This document shows positions 8,401 to 37,700 of a stretch of 64,000 bases of DNA, piece after piece. The DNA is from Cynocephalus volans (lineage: Eukaryota > Chordata > Mammalia > Dermoptera > Cynocephalidae): contig NC_084472.1 in the NCBI RefSeq assembly GCF_027409185.1, positions 49,525,427 through 49,589,426 on the forward strand, written 5' to 3'. The notes under the pieces are model-generated. The model had not been told where the DNA came from, made no database searches, and worked only from the letters and a program-made list of their open reading frames with translations. How positions within the stretch are numbered: position 1 is the first letter of the stretch; each line of letters opens with the position of its first letter. Both the position numbers and the translations under genes were made by a program.

Positions 8401-11400
8401 TCCATTAAACACCAACTCCCCATTTCTTCCTCCTTATCCTGTGGCAAGCAGCATTCTACTTTCTTTCACTATGAATTTGCTACTCTAGGAACCTGGTATG
8501 AGGGATCTTCAAAAAGTTCATGGAAGGATTAGTATTATCTTTTACTTCAGTTTTTCCACGAACTTTTTGAAATATGCTTGTATAAGAATCATAAAATATT
8601 TGTCCCATTTTGACTGGCTTACTTCACTCAGCATTATGTCTTCAAGGTTCATCCATATTGTAGCATACATCAAAATTTCCTTCCTTCCTTAGACCAAATA
8701 ATATCCGATATATATCTATGTACCACATTTTAATTATCCATTTATCCATCAATGGACGCCTGGGTTGCTTCTACCTTTTGGCTATTGTGAATAATGCTGC
8801 TGTGAACACGGGTGTTCAAATATCTGTCCTAGTCCCTGCCTTCACTTCTTTTGGATATATACCTAGAAGAGAAATTGCAGGATCATATGGTAAATTCTAT
8901 GCTTAATTTTTGAGGAATTGCTGTACAGTTTTCTACAGTGGCTATACCATTTTACATTCCCACACCCTGTTTCTTATATTGTGTTCATATAACTGTGGAA
9001 TTATCTTTAAAACCTTCTTAGCCATTCTGCTTGCCTTAAATATCTTATGGTAGTCAACAATTTCCTATAGAATTGAAGCTAAAATAGTACATATACTGTA
9101 TTGTCTATGCAGAAATATGCTTAATCACTGACATCTTAGGCCTTTTTGCTGCTTTGTGGGTAGCTATCAGGACACAACAACTGATTGGAAAGATGTAAAA
9201 TAATAGATGGCAGGACTTTCAAAAAGAAGTTTTAAAATATCCCTTACAGATTATCTTAAGAGAAACATGACCACCTTATGTGTTTAAGTGCTGTTGCCTT
9301 CTCTGGACCAGGTAAGGTCAGTAATAATTGAGGTATAAGTGTTATTTAGGTAGCAAGGAATATGTGGCTCATGTAGAGGTGAAATGCCAGCATTCTTTCT
9401 ATGAAAACATATTTAAAAGTGTGCAGAGAATACTTTATTTGAAATTTTATTTCTCACTCAGCTGATAACCAGCTTTATTTACATACCCGAAAAGAGCACG
9501 TTGGTTTACCTGATCTCTGAGGGTCCTTTTCATTTCTAAAACTGTGATTTTTAAATGTACTAAATGAATTTGTTGTAAATGTAAACATGTACTATTCATT
9601 TTAAAAGAGCAAGGACTAGAAAGCATATGCCAAACTTTTTAATTATGATTGTTTCTAAATAATTTCATCTGGGGACTGAATATGGGGAAGTGGTGAGTTG
9701 TAATTTCAGTTTTTAAAACACTTTATTGACATGTATTGTTTGGATTTTTCATTAATTTTATATTGGGGGGAAAATAATAGAAAATAAAACTTTTCCCCCC
9801 AAATTTGAATGGTTAATCTTATACTGTCATCTGTTTTAATATTAGACCTGTACCCTTTCTGGAGGCAAACATCATGGTCCTGTTGAAGCCCTGAAACAAA
9901 TGTTATTTAATCTTCAAGCAGTACAAGAAAGTTTTAGTCACAATAAAACATCAGAGCCAAAAGAAGAGATTAAGCAAGTAAGTACAAACTTGATTTATGA
10001 ATTGAGATCTGTGAATTTATATAAAGATGCCTTCCTGTATCCTTTTTAGTTGTTTATCTCTGAACAGATTATTCTATTTGGTTTATAAATCCAACATCTT
10101 ATTTAGATTTAATGAGGTTACAACTATAGTATGAAAGGGTTGTAAGAATTGTTTTTAATGCCCTACAAAATTAATCAGTAGGGCCCAGCTTCTTGTAGTT
10201 ATATTTGGGGAGGCATAAAACACCTTTTCAACATTTGACTGCTCCACACACCTTTGTCATCTGAAATTTAATTTTGTTACCATGTGTTCTTGTTGTGAAT
10301 ATAGTTATGTAAAGTTTTATTTTAGGACCGTGTTTTTTTAATTTGTGTATTTTCTAGGAATTTGAAAATCTGTTTCTGCTTAGGGCTGCTATTTTATAAA
10401 AGATAGATTTTCTTCACAAAGGTATAGTGTTTAAGAGCCTAGAATTTATATTCTTTCAAGTCTGTGAATTCCACTTCTTCTTACTAGCAAGTGCAATATT
10501 TGTATAAATCACTTAACGTCTTTAGTTTGTTTTGTTTTCTTTTTAAAAATTTATTAATTTGTTTTTTAAGAATTGTGTATATTTTTTGATGTACAACATG
10601 ATATTTTGAAATATGCATACATTGTGAAATGGCTAAATTGAGCTAATTGACATGGATTACCTCACATAGTTATTTTTTGTGGTGAGAACACTTAAAATTT
10701 ATCTTAGTGGATTTCAAGTATATTGTTATTAACTACAGTGACCATGTTGTACAACACATCTGTTAAACAGATCTCTCCTCCTGTCTAACTGAAATTTTGT
10801 ATCCTTTGACCAACATCTTCCCTGCCCTCCAACCCTGCTTTGCTCCAGTTCTTGGTAAACAGCATTCTACTCTCTGCTTCTGTGAGTTAGACTTTTTAGA
10901 TTTCACATATAAGTGAGATGTGGTATTTTTCTTTCTGTGCCTGGCCTATTTTGCTTATCAGTTTCCTTTTCTGTAAAATGAGGTTGTTGAGAAGACGAAA
11001 TGAGACAGATAATAGTACTCAGTATGGTGTTTGGCACTGAAGGAAGTGCTTTTTACAAGGGTATAGGGAAAGTACAGCCAAGAGGGCAGGTCTGAGATAT
11101 CTGCAGTTATGCACCTGGGCCCCAGCCCGGAGCCAAGGGCGGATAGTTCCCAGAAATAGACAAGTCAGTTAAAGTTTCAAGAGTGCCCCTCAGCTGTTTC
11201 AAGGACTCCCACTTGACCGAAGTTCACCCCTGGCTTGATTTAAACTAACCAATTAAACTTGCTTCTCGCTTCTGTACCCGCGCTTATTTGAACTGACCAA
11301 TTAAACTTGCTTCTCGCTTCTGTACCCGCGCTTTTTGCTATAAAAAGGACCCAGGAGCTCTACTCGGCGCGCCAGTCTTTCGAAAGACTGAGTCGCCCGG

Positions 11401-13329
11401 GTACCTGTGTGTTCAATAAACCTCTTGTTTTTGCATCCGAAGCCGTGGTCTCGCTGTTCCTTGGGAGGGTCTCCCTGAACTGACTGACTACCCACTGCGG
11501 GAGTCTTTCATTTGGGGGCTCGTCCGGGATCGGAGACCCCCACCCAGGGACCACCGACCCACCAACGGGAGGTAAGCTGGCCAGCAGTCGTTCTGTGTCT
11601 CGTTTCTGTGTCTCGTTTCTGTGTCTCGTTTCTGTGTCTCGTCTCTGTGTCTGACTCAGTGATTTCGACTGTCCCTCAGGGTGCGCACATTTTGGTTTCG
11701 GGTTTGTTCCGGGTTGATGTGTGAGTAGCGAACAGACGTGTTCGGGGGCTCACCACCCGGCAATCCTGGGAGACGTCCCAGGATCAGGGGAGGACCAGGG
11801 ACGCCTGGTGGACCCCTTGGCAGAGGATTATTGTGTTTTGGTCTCACCGCGTCTCGGGAGGCGCGCTCTGCCATCGGACTCTTTCTTCTATTTCTACGGC
11901 ACTCGGTCTCGTCGCCGTTTCTGGTTTCTTTTTGTCTTAGTTGTGATAGGTCTTTGCGTCGTCGTTCCCCTATTGGAAATTTTCGAGATGGGGCAAGGTG
12001 CCCTTACGCCTCTCTCCCTTACTCTAGATCATTGGAAAGATGTCAAAACCAGGGCTCACAATCTGTCCGTGGAGATCAAAAAAGGAAAATGGCGGACTTT
12101 CTGTTCGTCTGAGTGGCCCACATTCGGCGTAGGTTGGCCGCCAGAGGGAACCTTTGATCTTACTGTCATTTTTGCAGTTAAAAAGATTGTTTTTCAGGAG
12201 ACCGGAGGACACCCGGACCAGGTTGCCTATGTCGTGGTATGGCAAGACCTCGCCCAGAATCCCCCTCCCTGGGTGCCACCCTCCAGCAAAGTCGCTGTTG
12301 TTTCGGGATCAGAAAATACTCAAAGGCCACCTACAAGGAAGCCTTCCGCCCCTCCCCAACCCCCCGTCCTCCCGACACCAGATGACCTATTTTCTCTCTC
12401 TGAAACCCCACCTTACCCGGCGGCTCCGCTGCCCCCTCTGGCCCCTCAACCAAACAGATCGGCACCAGGACGAGCACCCAGTGACCCCAACCCTGAAGGA
12501 CCGGCTGCAGGGACTAGGAGCCGCCAACCTCGCAGTCCGAAAGGCGACTCGGGTCCTGACTCCACCGTAGCTTTGCCCCTCCGAGCCATAGGGCCCCCAG
12601 CCGAGCCAAGTGGCTTGGTCCCTTTGCAGTATTGGCCTTTTTCCTCAGCAGATCTTTATAATTGGAAATCTAACCATCCTTCTTTTTCTGAAAATCCAGC
12701 AGGACTCACGGGACTCCTTGAGTCTCTTATGTTTTCTCATCAGCCCACTTGGGACGATTGCCAACAGCTCCTACAGATTCTTTTCACCACTGAGGAGCGA
12801 GAAAGGATTCTCCTAGAGGCCCGCAAAAATGTCCTTGGGGACAACGGGGCCCCCACTCAACTCGAGAACCTCATTAATGACGCCTTTCCCCTCAACCGAC
12901 CTCAGTGGGATTACAACACAGCTGCAGGTAGGGAGCGTCTCCTGGTCTACCGCCGGACTCTAGTGGCAGGTCTCAAAGGGGCAGCCCGGCGCCCCACCAA
13001 TTTGGCTAAGGTAAGAGAGGTCTTGCAGGGACCGGTAGAACCCCCCTCGGTTTTCTTGGAACGCCTGATGGAGGCATATAGGAGATACACTCCGTTTGAC
13101 CCCTCTTCTGAGGGACAGCAGGCGGCAGTTGCCATGGCTTTTATCGGCCAGTCAGCCCCAGATATCAAGAAAAAGTTACAAAGACTAGAGGGGCTCCAAG
13201 ACTTTTCCTTACAAGATTTAGTGAGAGAGGCAGAAAAGGTGTACCACAAGAGAGAGACAGAAGAGGAAAAACAAGAAAGAGAAAAAAGAGAGACAGAAGA
13301 GAGAGAGAGACGGCGCGATAGGCGCCAAG

Positions 13330-13370
<41 letters not shown>

Positions 13371-16300
13371 TGACTAGGATTTTGGCCGCAGTGGTAGGTG
13401 AAAGAGGGTCTAGAGATAGGCAGACAGGGAACCTGAGCAACCGGGCAAAGAAAACACCTAGGGATGGAAGACCCCCTCTAGACAAAGACCAATGCGCGTA
13501 CTGTAAAGAGAAGGGTCACTGGGCAAGAGAATGTCCCCGGAAAAAGAATATCAGAGAAGCCAAGGTTCTATCCCTAGATGACTAGGGGAGTCGGGGTTCG
13601 GACCCCCTCCCCGAACCTAGGGTAACACTGACTGTGGAGGGGACCCCCATCGAGTTTCTGGTCGATACCGGGGCTGAACATTCGATACTGACCCAACCCA
13701 TGGGGAAGGTAGGGTCCAGGCGGACAGTCGTAGTAGGAGCGACCGGCAGCAAAGTCTACCCCTGGACCACACAGAGACTTTTAAGGGTCGGACATAAGCA
13801 AGTGACCCATTCCTTTTTGGTCATACCTGAGTGCCCTACTCCTCTGTTGGGCCGGGACATCCTGACCAAACTAAAAGCTCAAATCCAGTTTTCTACAGAG
13901 GGCCCACAAGTAACATGGGGAGATCACTCTACCATGTGCCTGGTCCTAAACCTAGAAGAAGAATACCGGCTACATGAAAAGCCAGTTCCCTCCTCTATCG
14001 ACCCGTCCTGGCTCCAGCTTTTTCCCACTGTATGGGCAGAAAGGGCAGGCATGGGGCTAGCCAATCAAGTCCCACCAGTGGTAGTAGAGCTGAAATCGGG
14101 TGCCTCACCGGTGGCCGTCCGACAGTATCCAATGACTAAAGAAGCCCGGGAAGGCATCAGACCCCACATCCAAAGGTTCTTAGACCTAGGGGTCTTAGTG
14201 CCCTGCCAGTCGCCCTGGAACACCCCTCTGCTACCAGTAAAAAAGCCAGGGACTGGCCACACAACTGGGGATAAATTGGAAGTTACATTGTGCGTATAGG
14301 CCCCAGAGCTCAGGTCAAGTAGAGAGAATGAATAGAACCATCAAAGAGACCTTAACTAAATTGGCCTTAGAGACCGGTGGAAAAGACTGGGTGGCCCTCC
14401 TTCCCTTAGCGCTGTTCAGAGCCAGGAATACCCCTGGCCAGTACGGTCTAACTCCCTATGAAATCCTCTACGGGGGACCCCCCCCATACTTGAGTTGGGA
14501 GAAACACTGGGTCCCGATGATAATTTTCTCCCTGTCTTATTTACCCATTTAAAGGCTCTAGAAGTTGTGAAGACCCAGATTTGGGACCAGATCAAAGAGG
14601 CATATCAGCCCGGTACCATAGCTGTCCCCCACCCGTTCCAGGTCGGAGACCGAGTGCTGGTCAGACGCCATCGACCCAGCAACCTTGAGCCTCGGTGGAA
14701 AGGCCCGTATCTGGTATTGCTGACCACCCCGACCGCAGTAAAAGTTGATGGCATCGCTGCCTGGGTCCATGCTTCCCATCTCAAGCCTGCACCACCCCCG
14801 GCACCAAACGAGACCTGGGAGCTGGAAAGGACTGATCATCCTCTTAAGCTGCGTATTCGGCGGCGGAAAAATGAGTCCACCGGGTAAGAACCCTCACCGG
14901 CCTGTGACCCTCACCTGGAAGGTACTGTCCCAAACTGGAGACGTTGTCTGGGTCAAACAGGCTGCCCAGCCTCCTTGGACTTGGTGGCCCGATCTTAAAC
15001 CTGATGTATGTGCCCTGGCGGCGGGTATTGAAACCTGGGATATCCCGGGATCCAGTGTATCGGCCTCCAAGGCCCAGATCAGACCCCCTGACTCAGACTA
15101 TACAAAAGCTTATAATCAGATCACCTGGGGGGTCCCAGGGTGCAGCTATCCCCGAGCTAGAAACAGGCTTGCCGCTTCCCCCTTCTACGTGTGCCCCCGG
15201 GATGGCCGGACCCTTTCAGAAGCTAGAAGGTGCGGAGGGCTGGAATCCCTATATTGCAAAGAATGGGGTTGTGAAACCACGGGGACAGTCTACTGGGGAC
15301 CTAGTTCCTCATGGGACCTCATAACTGTAGAACGTAACGGTAGCAGTAAAAGCTGTGACAACTCCGGCTGGTGTAACCCCCTTAAAATAAAATTCACAGA
15401 GAAAGGAAAAAATTCCAGAGATTGGGCACAAGGAAGAACCTGGGGACTAAGGTTCTATTTGACGGGAAACGATCCAGGTGTACTGTTCACCATTCGCCTA
15501 GATATCACCAATATGCCAACTGTGGCAGTGGGCCCCGACCCCGTCCTTGCAGAACAGGGACCTCCTAGCAACAAGCTGTTCCCAATGACTAGCAGGCAAC
15601 CCCCCGCGGCACAAAGGAGCACTGCTACACAGAGCCTCCTATCACCAGGCACTCTACCCCCCACCACGGGTGACAGGCTCTTTGGTCTTGTACAGGGGGC
15701 CTTCCTAGCTCTAAATGCCACCAACCCGAACGCCACAGAGCATTGCTGGCTCTGTCTGGCCATAAGCCCCCCCTACTATGAAGGAATAGCCTTTTTGGGA
15801 GAGGCCAATTATACCAGCGCCGAGAGTTGCCGTTGGGGGACCCAGGGAAAGCTTACTCTCACAGAGGTCACAGGACAAGGGTTATGTATAGGAACAATAC
15901 CTTCTACCCATCAACATCTTTGCAACCAGACCCTATCCATCAATTCCTCCGGGGACCATCAGTACCTTCTCCCCTCCAACCATAGCTGGTGGGCTTGCAG
16001 CACCGGTCTCACCCCTTGCGTTTCCCTCTCAGTTTTTAATCAGTCTAAGGATTTCTGTGTCCAGGTTCAGCTGATTCCTCGCATCTATTACCATCCTGAA
16101 GAAACTTTGTTGCAGGCCTATGACAACCCTCATCCCAGGTTTAAGAGAGAACCTCTCACACTTACCCTAGCTGTCCTACTGGGAATTGTGGCAGGTATAG
16201 GTACCGGCTCGGCTGCTCTGATTAAAGGACCTATAGACCTCCAGCGGGGCCTAACCGAGCTCCAGACTGCCATGGACACTGACCTCCGGGCCCTCCAGGA

Positions 16301-19300
16301 TTCAGTCAGCAAGTTAGAGGACTCATTGACTTCTCTATCTGAGGTAGTACTCCAAAATAGGCGAGGCCTTGACTTACTGTTTTTAAGAGAGGGAGGCCTC
16401 TGCGCGGCCCTCAGAGAGGAGTGCTGTTTTTATGTAGACCATTCAGGTGTGATACGAGACACCATGGCCAAACTCAAACAAAGACTAGATAAAAGACAGT
16501 TAGAGCGCCAAAAAGATCAAAACTGGTTTGAAGGTTGGTTCAATAGCTCCCCTTGGTTCACTACCCTACTATCAACCATCGCCGGGCCCCTAGTACTCCT
16601 TCTTCTGTTGCTCATTCTGGGGCCCTGTGTCATCAACAGGTTAGTCCAATTCATCAATGATAGAATAAGTACAATTAAAGTCCTGGTTCTTAGACAAAAA
16701 TATCAGACTATAGATAATGAAAATAACTTTTAACTCCGCTCTAAGATTAGAGCGATCCACAAGAGAAATGGGGGAATGAAGGAAGTGCTTTTTACAAGGG
16801 TATAGGGAAAGTACAGCCAAGAGGGCAGGTCTGAGATATCTGCAGTTATGCACCTGGGCCCCAGCCCGGAGCCAAGGGCGGATAGTTCCCAGAAATAGAC
16901 AAGTCAGTTAAAGTTTCAAGAGTGCCCCTCAGCTGTTTCAAGGACTCCCACTTGACCGAAGTTCACCCCTGGCTTGATTTAAACTAACCAATTAAACTTG
17001 CTTCTCGCTTCTGTACCCGCGCTTATTTGAACTGACCAATTAAACTTGCTTCTCGCTTCTGTACCCGCGCTTTTTGCTATAAAAAGGACCCAGGAGCTCT
17101 ACTCGGCGCGCCAGTCTTTCGAAAGACTGAGTCGCCCGGGTACCTGTGTGTTCAATAAACCTCTTGTTTTTGCATCCGAAGCCGTGGTCTCGCTGTTCCT
17201 TGGGAGGGTCTCCCTGAACTGACTGACTACCCACTGCGGGAGTCTTTCATTTGGGGGCTCGTCCGGGATTTGAACCGCACTTGGTAAATAGTAGCTCTTA
17301 CTGTCTTTGTTTATTTTCTTATTGTTAGAGCTTTATGAAATTCAGTTTTCATTACAGATGAGTGGATTAGCTCTTGAGAACTACCACAGCATGCTCATTT
17401 GAGTTGTATTTCTTAATTTTTCTCCTTACATTCTAATAATCATATCCATCCTTCTTTTCCCTCCCCTTTTAAACATTGAGGCATAACTTTTTTCAATAAA
17501 GTCATAATTTCAAGCCAAGATTTATTTTTAATGGACATACATTTAGAAACATACTTTCGGATAATTGATAGGTAACTCTAAGTAGTAGTTGTAATATTTT
17601 TAGAATAAAGGGAAAATAAAAATAATGTTCTTTTGAAAATTATTTGCTAGAATTCTTTAGAAATGCAGAAAATATTTTTTTATATTCATAATCACATTGT
17701 AAATAGCATTTAATTTTATAATTATATAACATTTTCAATATTTTGTTATATTTGGTGTTTTAAATAATAGGTTTCAGAAGGTGATTTCTCTGAATTACAG
17801 TTGAAGGAAAGTATGATTCCTATTACTAGGTCACTTCAAAAGTAAGTATTCTTTACTAACATAGATGATACAAATCTATTTAGTCATTAGACTGAGATCA
17901 GAAAGTTACAGGGTAGAGTTAAGTAGTTCCAAGAGTAGATATGCTAAGCATATTTAAACTTGGGGAGTACACTGTTTAATCTTTAAGAAAAACATTGTAT
18001 TGTTTTCTCTTACACCTGTGCTATTTCCTGTTTTAAATTTTCTAAGGAGCTAATGAAATACCCTTAGATATCTAAAATATAATGGATGTGAATGGCTCAG
18101 AGATTCTCTTTTCATTTCTGAGAAACAGCAACAATTTGAGATAGTCAATATTGATGTGCATATTCTGTAACAATTTGTTATGAAATGTGTTTTTATATAT
18201 TCCCTCTGGGATAAATATAATAATCATAAATGCATCATTATGTAACACAGCTCCACAAAAACCTAAAGTAGTTAAAATGTCCTGTGTATAATGATAGGTC
18301 TAATTTTCTTATTTACATTGTCTTCAGTAAAAAAAGTGGAGAATTCAAGTCTTTCCTATAGTTGTGATATTGGCAGAAGAGGACTATTTATTTATGGTTA
18401 TGGTTGTGTGAATACGAAGTGTTCCAGAAGATTGGAATACTGAGCTTAGGAAATACTAAGATAAAAATTTTTACTCTAGTAACACTATTTTACTTAACTA
18501 GAAGTGAGCTAAATAAATATTCTCTACCTTTTGTACTTTCAGAATTTGCTTAGGATTCTGTTATCTAATGAAGTGGTGGAAAAGTAAAACACTAGACGTA
18601 TAAACTTATGACTATCATAAATATATATACATATATATAGTTTTCATAGTTGAAAATATGTGATGTATGATGTTTTTTTTTTTTCTCTACTTAATTTATA
18701 ATCTTTAGGGTAGAAAAAAATGCCTCTTTGTAGCTTGCCATAGTATGTGGGTATAGTGTTCATACCTATAAGAATTCAATGAATAATGATAATTTTTAAC
18801 TAATATTTATTGAATATACCAAGTATCAGTATTCTAAGTGCTATTGAATATAATTCATGTAATCTTCGTAACCCTATGAGATAAGTGCTATTATTATCTT
18901 CATAATAAATAACAGGGAATAGGCAAAAAGTAGTAAAGTAACTTTCTCAGTGTTACACTGCTAGTAAGAGGTAGCAGCAGGACTCAAACTAGGCAATCTG
19001 GTTTGAAAGCCAGTGTTTCTAACACTCTTCTCATTAATGACAATGCTGAATTGCTCATTGAGACTACGTGCAGGGCTTCAGTTGATCATCTAGGATAAAG
19101 ACCTCATTATGCTTTAAAATTTAAGGTGGATGACCTCACCACCAGCTTCCTATTGCTCTTAAATGCATTGGTATTAAACTTGTGTTGCAGACCTAAATGT
19201 GTTTTCTGAGTTAAAGTACATACCCTAGAAGATTTTTTTCTTGAAAATGAATATTGGGCTACAACTAATTAAATCACCACAAAAATTGATATTGATCCAT

Positions 19301-22300
19301 AGGTGCTTTTATCATTTGCTAGAATTTTTAAAAATAATAGTAATTTTATTTCTACCATAAACAATAAGTGGTCTTGCCTACATGTTGAATTTCATTTTTA
19401 GGGAGAGCAATATTCATGTTTTGTTAGATGGCTTTTAGTTGTTCATTCTGTTGGATTAGCTGGACCAATCTTAATTAGTCTTTTACTTTACATTTCAACA
19501 GTATTATCAGCAAGGCATTTGTACATTTGTAAAGTAAGTTTAGACTTACAAAAGCATATTAGTACATTTTTTTCCATTTTTTTCAGTCTGTAGATTAACC
19601 TTTTTAAGGACAGTTGAAAACTTATTCAGTCTGAATTCTTTATAGGCTGCAAAATGTTCTGGATAGGTATATTGCCATCTTTTCATATTTTAAAATAAAT
19701 AGAATAGCTTCTTCAAAAGTTACATGTTGTACTTTGCTTTAATGACCTTTTCTAAGGAGAAAACACTGTTACGTTGGTACTGGAGGAGTCTGGGGAGGTT
19801 GGATGCTGGACCTCAACCCTGTCTTCTACCAGGTTCTTTTTTTTACTTTTTTTTTTAAATTACTTTTTAATTTTATTAATTTTACTTTTTTACATTCTAG
19901 GATGTTGTTGCGGAGCAATTGGGAGGGAGGGAGAGGGGAAAGGGGAAGGAAATGTGATGGAAGAAGGAGGAAGGAGGAGGGGCGGGATTGAGGCCTGCGG
20001 CACCCCCCTCATTCCCACAGGGGAGACCAGGGAGCTTCCAGCAGTGGCTTGGTCATTGCTGGGCTGGGTGCAGATGTCAGGGGGGTGTGGCAAAAGCCCT
20101 CATCTCCCACCACCCCAGCTCGAGAACCCAGGGCCCTGCTTGATGTGGCTTGGTGGTTGTCACTGGGCTGGTTGCACATGTTGGGGTGGTGCAGCCGAGG
20201 CTCTTGGCCTCCCATCGTCCCATCTCGGGAGAGCCCGGGGTGCTTCCTGTGGTGGCTCGGTGGTCATCGTTGGGCTGGCTGTGCGTGTCGGGGGGGGCAT
20301 GGCCATGGCCCTCGGCCCCACCCACCGCCAAGCTCAGGAGAGCCTGGGTGCTTCCTGCCTTGGCTTGGTGGTTGCTGCTGGGCTGGCTGCACATGCTGGG
20401 GGGCATAGCTGAGGTTTTTGGCCCCCCACTGCCCCAGCTTGGGGGAGCCTGGGGTGCTTCCTGTGGTGGCTTGGTGGTCGCCACTGGGCTGGTTGTGGGT
20501 GTTGGGGGTGTGTGGCTGAGGCCCTCAGTCCCCCACTGCCCTGGTTCAGGAGGGCCCAGGGTGCTTCCTGCAGTGGCTCAGTGGTTTTGGGGGGGCATGG
20601 CCGAGGTCCTCAGCCCCTCACCTCCCTGGCTCAGGAGAGCCTGGGGCACTTCCTGTGGTGGCTCAGTGGTTATTGCTGGGCTGGCTGCACGTCGGGGGGC
20701 CATGGCCGAGGCCCTCAGTCCCCCACCGCCCTGGTTTGAGAGAGCCCTGGGGCGCTTCCTGCAGCAGTTTGGTGGTCATCGCTGGGCTGGCTGCGGGTGT
20801 GCATGCATACCACCAGAGGCTGATCTTGAAAGACAGCATCATCTGGGCTCACTTGCTTTTGGGCTTTCTGTTGGGTTCACCCAGTGGGAGGTACCACAGG
20901 AGATCTAAGTGCTCGACTCAGCTCAGTGCCTGGTGCACACCAGGCCCCAGGTGAATGCTAGTTCCAGCCCTCTCGTGAATAAGCATCTCTTTCTTGTTCT
21001 TCAAAAGGAATTTCTCCAGGGTTGGCAGTGGGTGCTCACTGCCAGTCACCAGGGCCTCTGTGTTCCCGCACCTTGACCTTAATGCTGCAGACCCTGTTTC
21101 CAGGGACCAAGTTCTCTGAAGGTCCTGCGGGTCACTCTCCTGGCCTTCTGTGCACCTCTCCGAGTTCTCACCCTGCATAGTCATAGCTTCTGCAGTAACT
21201 CTAAGAGATCTCTAAGTCTACCCCTGAGAAGCACCGGTTGCCATTCCTCCAACTCCATTGGTGGCGAGTCCCTTTATTACTCCAGAAGCAACATGCCCCA
21301 TACTTCCAAGCTTGAGTGAATGTCCTCATATCCAGCAATGACCAAATATTTAGGGCACACTTGAGTGTCAGGCCCACACCACCCCTGCTTCCTTTCCTTT
21401 CACCTTTACTAGGCCCCACTACGTGCCAGATCTAAGTAAAGAGGCTCCTGAGGTTCTGGCTGTCTGCTGGGGCGGGACAGCCTCATAGGCAGATCATGTC
21501 TGCCTGGTGGGTGGCCTTGATCCCTACCAAAGGCCCTCTACCCCAGAGGCTCATCAGAGGACAAGAGGCCTAGGTTGTAGGGAGTAGCTGCCAGGCTGAT
21601 TGTGTTGGGTGTCGGGCGGGACTTGTGGGGCTCTAACAGGTTCTTGACTCCGCCACAGGAAAGAATTCAAGAGCAGAGTTGGAGTAGAAAGCAAAAACAG
21701 GTTTAATGCAAAGAGAAAGAAATACAGACTTCACAAAGTGCAGGCTGGCTTGAGAGTGAGCAGCAGCCCTGCCTTCTTTCTGGATTCTACCTTTATAGTT
21801 GGCTGTTCTGTACATATTCATGCTATCTAGTGAATGTTTAATTAAGGGAGTGGTTCCCAGTTATGTAACTGGTTATGTAACCTAGCTTTATGCATGCTCT
21901 TTTGGTCTCTCTGGAGCATGCTCATTGGTCAAATTCCAACATATACACTGAAAATTATTTAAAATATATTTGGTGTTCTCTAGTGCCTCCAGTGGAAGTT
22001 CATTCAAGGATAAACTCTTTTCTACTGAGTATGCTCGGCCACTGGAATTATGTAAGTCTGCCTCTTGTGGTCTCAATCTCCCAGTGTTGGTGCCAAAAAT
22101 AGATGCAACAAGCAACAGTAACTCAGGACTTAGAGGAGGGGCTTGAGTCCTAAGGGAGTGGTTTGAGACCCAGGAGAGTGGCCTAAAATACTAACCCAGG
22201 GAAATTGAGCACCTCCTATCTCAATGTCTTCCGATTCCTCAAATAACAGTTTTTTTTTTTTTTTTTAGCGATTTGGATGGCTAGCTAGTTTTAAGATATC

Positions 22301-36590: not shown

Positions 36591-37529
36591 AAGTGGCTTG
36601 GGGGCTCGCCTGCAGCACTTGGTATATTCAGCTAAGAATTTTGGATTTTATCCTATAGGCAAAGAACGGGGACCAGCTTTTGTGATAAAGCCTAAAATGA
36701 GTATTATTTTTTTGTTAGTTTTGTATTGATTTGTGCTAGCAGTAAGTTGAACTGTTTTTCAGATACTAAAACCAACATTTTTCTTCATTACAGTGGCCAG
36801 TCCTTAAAATATGATACAATGGTAATAATGCACTATGTTAATAATTTTTTTATATAGTAATAAATGGTAGAATGCAGTCCTATTGTTTTTGTTCAGAGAT
36901 AGCCTACTCTTAGTGAGGTTCCTATGATGTTTTAATATAAAGTAAGTTCTGAAAATATAGGCTTGAGTGTTTTTATAACAACGTTAAGATTTGTTTTAGG
37001 TTGCAGTAGGTAATATTTAACTTATTGATCCATTTATTGTTTTTTTAGACAATAGTAAAAGAAGACAACAGAAATGAGCACAAGGAAGTCTCTCTTGGAA
37101 GAGGGTCCAGAAGCACCAATGACAGCAAGGAATATCGTTCATGACTCGGCTCTGAGCCAGTGATGGAAGGGACATGATGGTACCCCTGACAAACTAACAG
37201 TTTAGCACCCCTTTAAATCACTTGAGCATTCAACAGGTTTTTTAGAGAGAGCTGGGGGAAACATAAACAATTTTATTCAGAAACAGATTTACTTATTCCA
37301 AGTGGAGGCACAATCAATATTCTATTAAAAATGAGCAAAGAAATGTCAATCATAAAGCAATTAAAAAAAAACTGTCAAAAGAAAAAATGAGCAAAATGTA
37401 GCAAATATTTCCCAAGTTTCTGTAGTTCTTGTTCTTTGTATGTCTGTGTGTGTGCATGCATGTGTATAGTTTTATGAGTCAGATTTCTTAGAAGCATTTG
37501 AAAATTAAATGTCATGTTTGTTCTTTCTT

Positions 37530-37700
37530 AGCTGGGGTACCTTGGGCATGTTGAAGCTCTGAGCTTCAGTTTCTAAAGTGGAGCTAGTGATACCTATCTC
37601 ACACAGTTGTGAAGATTAATTGAGTCAATGCCTGTAAAGTACTTGGCTAGCACAGTTCCTGGCACATAGTAAATGCTCTGTGTTAGCTATTACTGGGAAA
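37530..37700 (+). repeat. MIR SINE
   Basis: 'gttgtgaagattaattgagt', then 'cagttcctggcacatagtaa', is the standard MIR 3' half in sense orientation. Confidence 0.75.

Follow-up and report, generated by a model that had tools for sequence, protein, structure and literature searches.

A tRNA-Pro-matching extension at the right end of a gammaretrovirus-like provirus in Cynocephalus volans

For HIV-1 and tRNA-Lys3, plus-strand synthesis normally stops at m1A58 and passes A58 when the methyltransferase is mutated, and the minor over-extension products end at positions 55, 54 and 37 (PMC13191261, accessible sections). The discussion section of PMC11912779 holds that copying of the full tRNA would abort reverse transcription since the translocated plus-strand DNA would not be extendable. 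In HIV-1 2-LTR circles, PBS sequence was found beside the unprocessed U5 end and was ascribed to defective RNase H activity (PMC5618025, in the part available). When the second end of HIV-1 was joined by the host, duplications were usually much larger or deletions occurred, according to the available text of PMC5041404. A literature search that had most subscription papers outside its scope, and is no proof of absence, gave no account of a tRNA-extended end in a germline provirus. Aberrant ASLV integrations with a poor viral end were reportedly described by Oh and colleagues.

Structure of the provirus and of its right end

The window, which is the whole 64-kb stretch of Cynocephalus volans DNA that was analysed, carried a gammaretrovirus-like provirus at 11038-17249, with all features on the plus strand. 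The 5' LTR (11038..11510) and the 3' LTR (16777..17249, ending CTTTCA) were 473 bp each with TG...CA termini and showed 0 of 473 differences. Judged by these identical LTRs, the insertion is recent. The direct repeat amounted to 493 bases since TT and the 18-nt PBS follow both LTRs. Each LTR also contained a tandem repeat of approximately 50 bp, 93% alike (11233-11337 and 16972-17076). Elsewhere in the window, five tandem copies of a 111-base unit were present at 20184-20700 with 85-108-base spacing and 61-79% likeness to the first copy.

Sequence comparison placed the tRNA-Pro PBS after the 5' LTR (11513..11530), continuing as CGGAGACC. Together with the two TG...CA LTRs and this PBS, gammaretroviral gag, env and a gag-pol read-through signal were all found, as is typical of class I elements; these were the gag open frame with matrix and p30 (11721..13370; PF01140, PF02093), the Gag/pol read-through pseudoknot (13583..13644; RF01073, 72.5 bits) and the env open frame (14745..16730; PF00429). 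Pol was incomplete, with remnants of the protease (13634..14296; PF00077) and the integrase C-terminal domain (14495..14884; PF18697) whose matches were 744 bases apart, a distance too short for RT, RNase H and integrase core. The domain scan took in four of the 10 ORFs of 100 aa or more, and no match with RT, RNase H or integrase core was obtained in these four frames. On its domain content, the provirus is a defective copy and not a different family. Since it seems to be without RT, RNase H and integrase core, these enzymes were probably supplied in trans by another copy.

At the right end, the terminal CA of the 3' LTR was followed by TT (17250-17251), normally removed by 3' processing and here retained, then by the 25 bases TGGGGGCTCGTCCGGGATTTGAACC (17252-17276) and by gcac (17277-17280), after which host DNA resumed. 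The 25 bases were identical throughout to the complement of positions 76-52 of CCA-tailed tRNA-Pro, and the identity stopped exactly after 17276, where the window reads GCACTT and the tRNA CGGGAC. The first 18 (17252..17269; tRNA positions 76-59) have the same letters as the PBS, and the last seven, TTGAACC (17270..17276; positions 58-52), differ from CGGAGACC, the viral continuation of the PBS. The right joint reads ...GAACC/gcac/ttgg and the left joint ...tttggcac/TGAAGG, with exactly 4 bp duplicated (11034..11037 and 17277..17280). The left end is normal and the right end, ...TTGAACC, has no terminal CA, so that the two ends do not both lie at CA as in ordinary integrase-mediated integration; it does carry the primer-tRNA complement directly after an unprocessed CATT, as is expected of a U5 end that kept its primer. 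The original prediction of TT, 25 bases of tRNA-Pro 76-52 and gcac was accurate to the base in coordinates, anatomy and tRNA identity.

The chance of a match for seven bases specified beforehand by a tRNA is 4^-7 (6e-5). TTGAACC occurred once on the plus strand between 10000 and 18000, at 17270. Within the provirus it had 0 occurrences on the plus strand and one on the minus strand, and the claim that these bases are absent from the viral genome stood for the former and failed for the latter. TTGAACC alone is not rare (6 occurrences in the 64-kb window, both strands counted), and the evidential weight therefore comes from its place directly 3' of the PBS copy and from the fact that the assembly has the joined string only once.

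This joined 24-mer, GGGGGCTCGTCCGGGATTTGAACC, which links the PBS copy to TTGAACC, was found at one place in the host assembly (2.81 Gb, 130 contigs), the right end of the window provirus. A search with TTTGGGGGCTCGTCCGGGATTTGAA allowing up to two mismatches gave 30 places, which were the window locus, one tRNA-Pro gene (L023) and 28 others that all continued as LTR, PBS and viral leader. A longer tRNA pattern with one mismatch allowed gave four places, each called tRNA-Pro by ARAGORN and each with bases other than TGG before the match. Outside this locus, the joined string was found neither in a provirus nor in a tRNA gene of the assembly. The proposed alignment with host tRNA-Pro genes upheld the tRNA match, and a tRNA gene is unlikely as the template since TGG precedes none of the four. 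Going by its letters, the string from TGG to TTGAACC was most likely copied from mature CCA-tailed tRNA, and at the least the last seven bases would have been.

A search for an empty site in the same genome with 143 joined host bases returned only the two flanks of the locus itself and no paralogous empty site. The joined flanks, including the left host flank at 10960..11037, which we take to be MIR-like, aligned weakly (E 0.04) across the insertion point with window positions 37470-37677, presumably another MIR-like stretch, which does not have the 27 bases. Two further matches (E 0.69 and 6.5) have no bearing on the joint.

Integration of the extended end and competing explanations

The 21-base U5 terminus ending at CA and followed by a non-T base was found at 249 places in the assembly, which were taken as ordinary right ends. 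For 20 proviral pairs on contig C1, LTR ends were matched by position among the matches listed and both outer joints were read. The target duplication was 4 bp in 16 and 5 bp in two of the 18 scored pairs, the LTR start not being found in the stretch read for the remaining two. TT was absent from all 20 sister right ends, which had been chosen for a following non-T base. The duplication at the window provirus is therefore of family-typical length, and the usual 4-bp stagger of the original prediction was found, with gcac on both sides. As 4 bp is the family norm (16 of 18 sisters), we infer that integrase and not host end joining made the right joint as well as the left, despite the CA-less right end.

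The best explanation, with a probability of about 0.8, is that synthesis by reverse transcriptase went past position 58 on a tRNA-Pro that had been retained, and that integrase joined the CA-less end in an otherwise normal concerted integration. The HIV-1 findings cited above, the PBS+1 variability in the family and the tRNA-Pro fragment at the LTR-LTR junction of a second germline copy, both described below, speak in its favour. Minus-strand DNA would have been primed by tRNA-Pro, which RNase H would not have removed at the right (U5) end. Plus-strand synthesis would have left U5 through CATT into the tRNA and continued beyond the normal stop at position 58 to position 52, with A58 presumably either bypassed in its methylated form or unmethylated. 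The U3 end of the viral DNA would then have been normal and its U5 end extended by 27 bp, probably in the form of a DNA:tRNA hybrid bearing a tRNA flap, and a physical tRNA would by implication have been attached to the DNA before integration. Integrase would presumably have used the U3 end in its normal form and, on the other side, the 3' OH of a plus strand that had been over-extended and ended in ACC and not CA, and both ends would have been joined at one 4-bp staggered target, with tRNA removal and gap filling probably left to host repair. Since the over-extension is at the right end only and not beside the left PBS, the transferred plus strand would have been normal and the right end copied separately, perhaps from a second plus-strand start. 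That the tRNA should still be present during second-strand transfer is at odds with the simplest scheme, where it has to leave first, and calls for either a second plus-strand start or an intermolecular transfer. The end of copying at position 52, which is not among the minor tRNA-Lys3 stops (55, 54, 37), is unexplained, and trimming is possible.

It is unlikely, at roughly one chance in eight, that integrase joined the U3 end only, with the over-long, tRNA-bearing U5 end left to host end joining and the 4-bp duplication a chance product of gap filling. The accessible text of PMC5041404 shows that this host route is known when one end is a poor integrase substrate and that viral deletions or insertions are possible at the joint, but the usual outcome is then a far larger duplication or a deletion of host DNA, whereas the window provirus has exactly 4 bp, the commonest value in its family. 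The right LTR could also belong, as its 5' LTR, to a second provirus that suffered a deletion or to a tandem copy, with a viral PBS and with TTGAACC as a deletion joint. The 18 PBS letters do equal the viral PBS and a tandem LTR arrangement is present elsewhere in the genome; however, the PBS copy is followed by seven tRNA bases and not by CGGAGACC, the LTRs are identical and the whole unit is bracketed by the 4-bp duplications, which makes this origin highly improbable.

An equally slim chance is given to a copying skip inside the tRNA, by which GCAC at 17277 would also be tRNA sequence (CTCGCACCC in the complement), integrase would have cut at its CA and the duplication would be accidental. 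The tRNA-Pro complement does contain ...CTCTCGCACCC, but this would take an unsupported 11-base skip as well as a chance agreement (1 in 256) with gcac in the left flank. As LTR copies are numerous, a faulty assembly or consensus at the joint of the 3' LTR was also considered; it is very improbable, since the assembly contains the joined 24-mer at this one place and no other locus found carries, in that form, the tRNA that the extra bases match. With one assembly at hand, an assembly fault or a later local rearrangement at the right joint stays formally admissible.

Traces of primer handling in the provirus family

The search for further tRNA-extended ends covered exact CATT+PBS with defined base contexts, partial PBS after a CGGGAG-type U5 and right ends with a non-T next base; contexts starting with C with non-viral AG at +4 and +5, PBS copies that had diverged and further U5 subtypes lay outside its scope. 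Exact CATT+PBS followed by a non-C base was found at 28 places besides the window locus, all running on as ...GAGAC, AAAAGACC or TAGACCCC like viral 5' leaders. A C start with a non-A fourth base after the PBS was found at 17 places. Five of these were read, and three clearly carried the leader of one other element. L073 and L074, with unsettled downstream sequence, could be further right-end cases. The other element (L073-L077) had the same PBS and a U5 ending ..CATT with a different leader. A C start with A as fourth and a non-G fifth base gave 91 places, all CAGAC, and the one that was read (L078) continued into viral leader. Partial PBS after a CGGGAG-type U5 with a non-T 18th PBS base gave one place, the tandem-LTR provirus on contig C2. 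As to similar ends in other copies of the family, which the original prediction had proposed to examine, the search gave the C2 junction with its tRNA-Pro fragment, and the 28 non-C contexts were leader-like.

The provirus at C2 158281833-158288411 (L179, L180, L181) is a germline copy with two tandem 5' LTRs. The first LTR (158281833-158282257, two ends read) was followed by the 26-base spacer TTTGGGGGCCCGGTCAGGGAACCAAA and a second LTR with an exact PBS, and the unit was bracketed by the 4-bp duplication GGTG (right end CTTTCA/GGTG, left flank ending GGGTG). Within the spacer, unprocessed TT can be read first, then a tRNA-Pro complement of six or seven bases, then CCCGGTCAGGGAACCA and last an unprocessed AA. 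CCCGGTCAGGGAACCA, a 16-mer, was absent from both strands of the window provirus and is presumably the 3' end of tRNA-Glu with CCA. Collection scans for this presumed tRNA-Glu stretch returned 0 viral contigs and two Mycobacterium contigs. As read from its bases, the junction resembles a 2-LTR circle junction with primer remnants, inside an integrated copy. The C2 LTRs were shorter than those of the window provirus by coordinates (approximately 425 vs 473 bp), the gap possibly being one repeat unit of approximately 50 bp.

The base at PBS+1 pairs with tRNA position 58. Among exact CATT+PBS copies, 12 were single-base variants of CGGAGACC at PBS+1 (A in 5, G in 6 and T in 1; L045, L049, L050, L054, L055, L059-L061, L063, L064, L066, L071), a pattern noticed before testing, computed once and set against control stretches that were partly sampled. 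Comparable searches gave 0 single-base variants at +4 and +5 (17 places, and 91 places that were all CAGAC). Positions +1, +4 and +5 were compared by search and +2 from listings, with +3 and +6 to +8 outside the comparison. The bulk of the family consisted of 367 copies with CNGAGACC after TTTCATT+PBS, and 10 of the 12 variants also had TTTCATT. Position +2 varied as well, with CTGAGACC in 5 among the 100 matches listed of TTTCATT+PBS copies and CTGAG, with T at +2, in 12 of the 30 places of the two-mismatch search, on three LTR types. T at +2 equals the tRNA copy; yet +1 is not, on these alignments, the only variable base. From +9 to +45, four variable sites were present in 60 CGGAGACC copies taken from the 100 matches listed, three of them common to 3 or 4 copies.

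The four A copies with the LTR type of the window provirus had 15-33 mutual differences over approximately 1.07 kb and 13-33 differences from C copies, the divergent L007 (51-56) being left out. Their mutual differences are as large as those from C copies, so they do not form a single amplified lineage. Of the six G copies, five belonged to one lineage with 0-5 differences. The PBS+1 variants may represent up to 8 origins, and recombination could lower this count. Opposite m1A, dATP is misinserted efficiently when the 3' neighbour is U, and a 3' neighbour A gives a low C signal, i.e. little G insertion (PMC4787781, in the sections available). The 3' neighbour of position 58 in tRNA-Pro is A59, and the published m1A-A data agree more closely with the A than with the G variants. 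The C and G at +1/+2 make up a CpG, by which the change to T can be accounted for, though not those to A and G. In addition, ten relatives read TTGAGACC after the PBS, of which four bases (TTGA) equal a tRNA-Pro copy to position 55 (L011-L020; also L044, L046, L047, L051-L053, L056, L057, L062 and L068).

Overall, the PBS+1 variability and the C2 junction suggest imprecise primer handling in this provirus family. A joint reading as a germline archive would have the m1A58-opposed base fixed at PBS+1 (A, G or T for C) in several insertions, the TTGA over-extensions as a heritable lineage, one U5 end copied to position 52, and the resulting over-long end, probably an RNA:DNA hybrid, used by integrase in a concerted 4-bp reaction. 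This reading is tentative and held at somewhat below even odds in view of the variability at +2, the place of +3 outside the search and the m1A-A misinsertion data that speak against the G variants.

Comparison with known systems

The window provirus suggests that a U5 end with 27 extra bp and no CA is usable by integrase under natural conditions, in a germ cell, and that leakiness of primer removal and of the stop at position 58 is frequent enough to leave genomic traces. The copying error would have been expected to prevent insertion, yet it was apparently tolerated here. ERV families with hundreds of young copies would allow the leakiness of the tRNA stop to be counted in genomes, a question hitherto approached by cell and enzyme assays as far as the accessible parts of the cited sources go.

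As in the HIV-1 2-LTR circle junctions described in the available part of PMC5618025, the window provirus has an unprocessed U5 end followed by primer-derived sequence; however, those circles are unintegrated and come from infected cells, whereas the window provirus is integrated in the germline with a duplication of normal length and a copy that runs past position 58. It shares with the HIV-1 aberrant integrations of PMC5041404, as far as its accessible text goes, the joining of one good and one defective end to the host, sometimes with extra viral sequence; the joints there usually show large duplications or deletions, less often inversions, in contrast to the exact 4 bp seen here. The lentiviral and spumaviral 'primer over-extension sequence' (PMC13191261, accessible sections) likewise involves plus-strand copying beyond position 58. 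In those viruses the genome has a counterpart of the extra copy next to the PBS, whereas in the window provirus the extra copy lies at the right end and is unmatched; it is the TTGA beside the PBS in 10 relatives that is like the lentiviral sequence.
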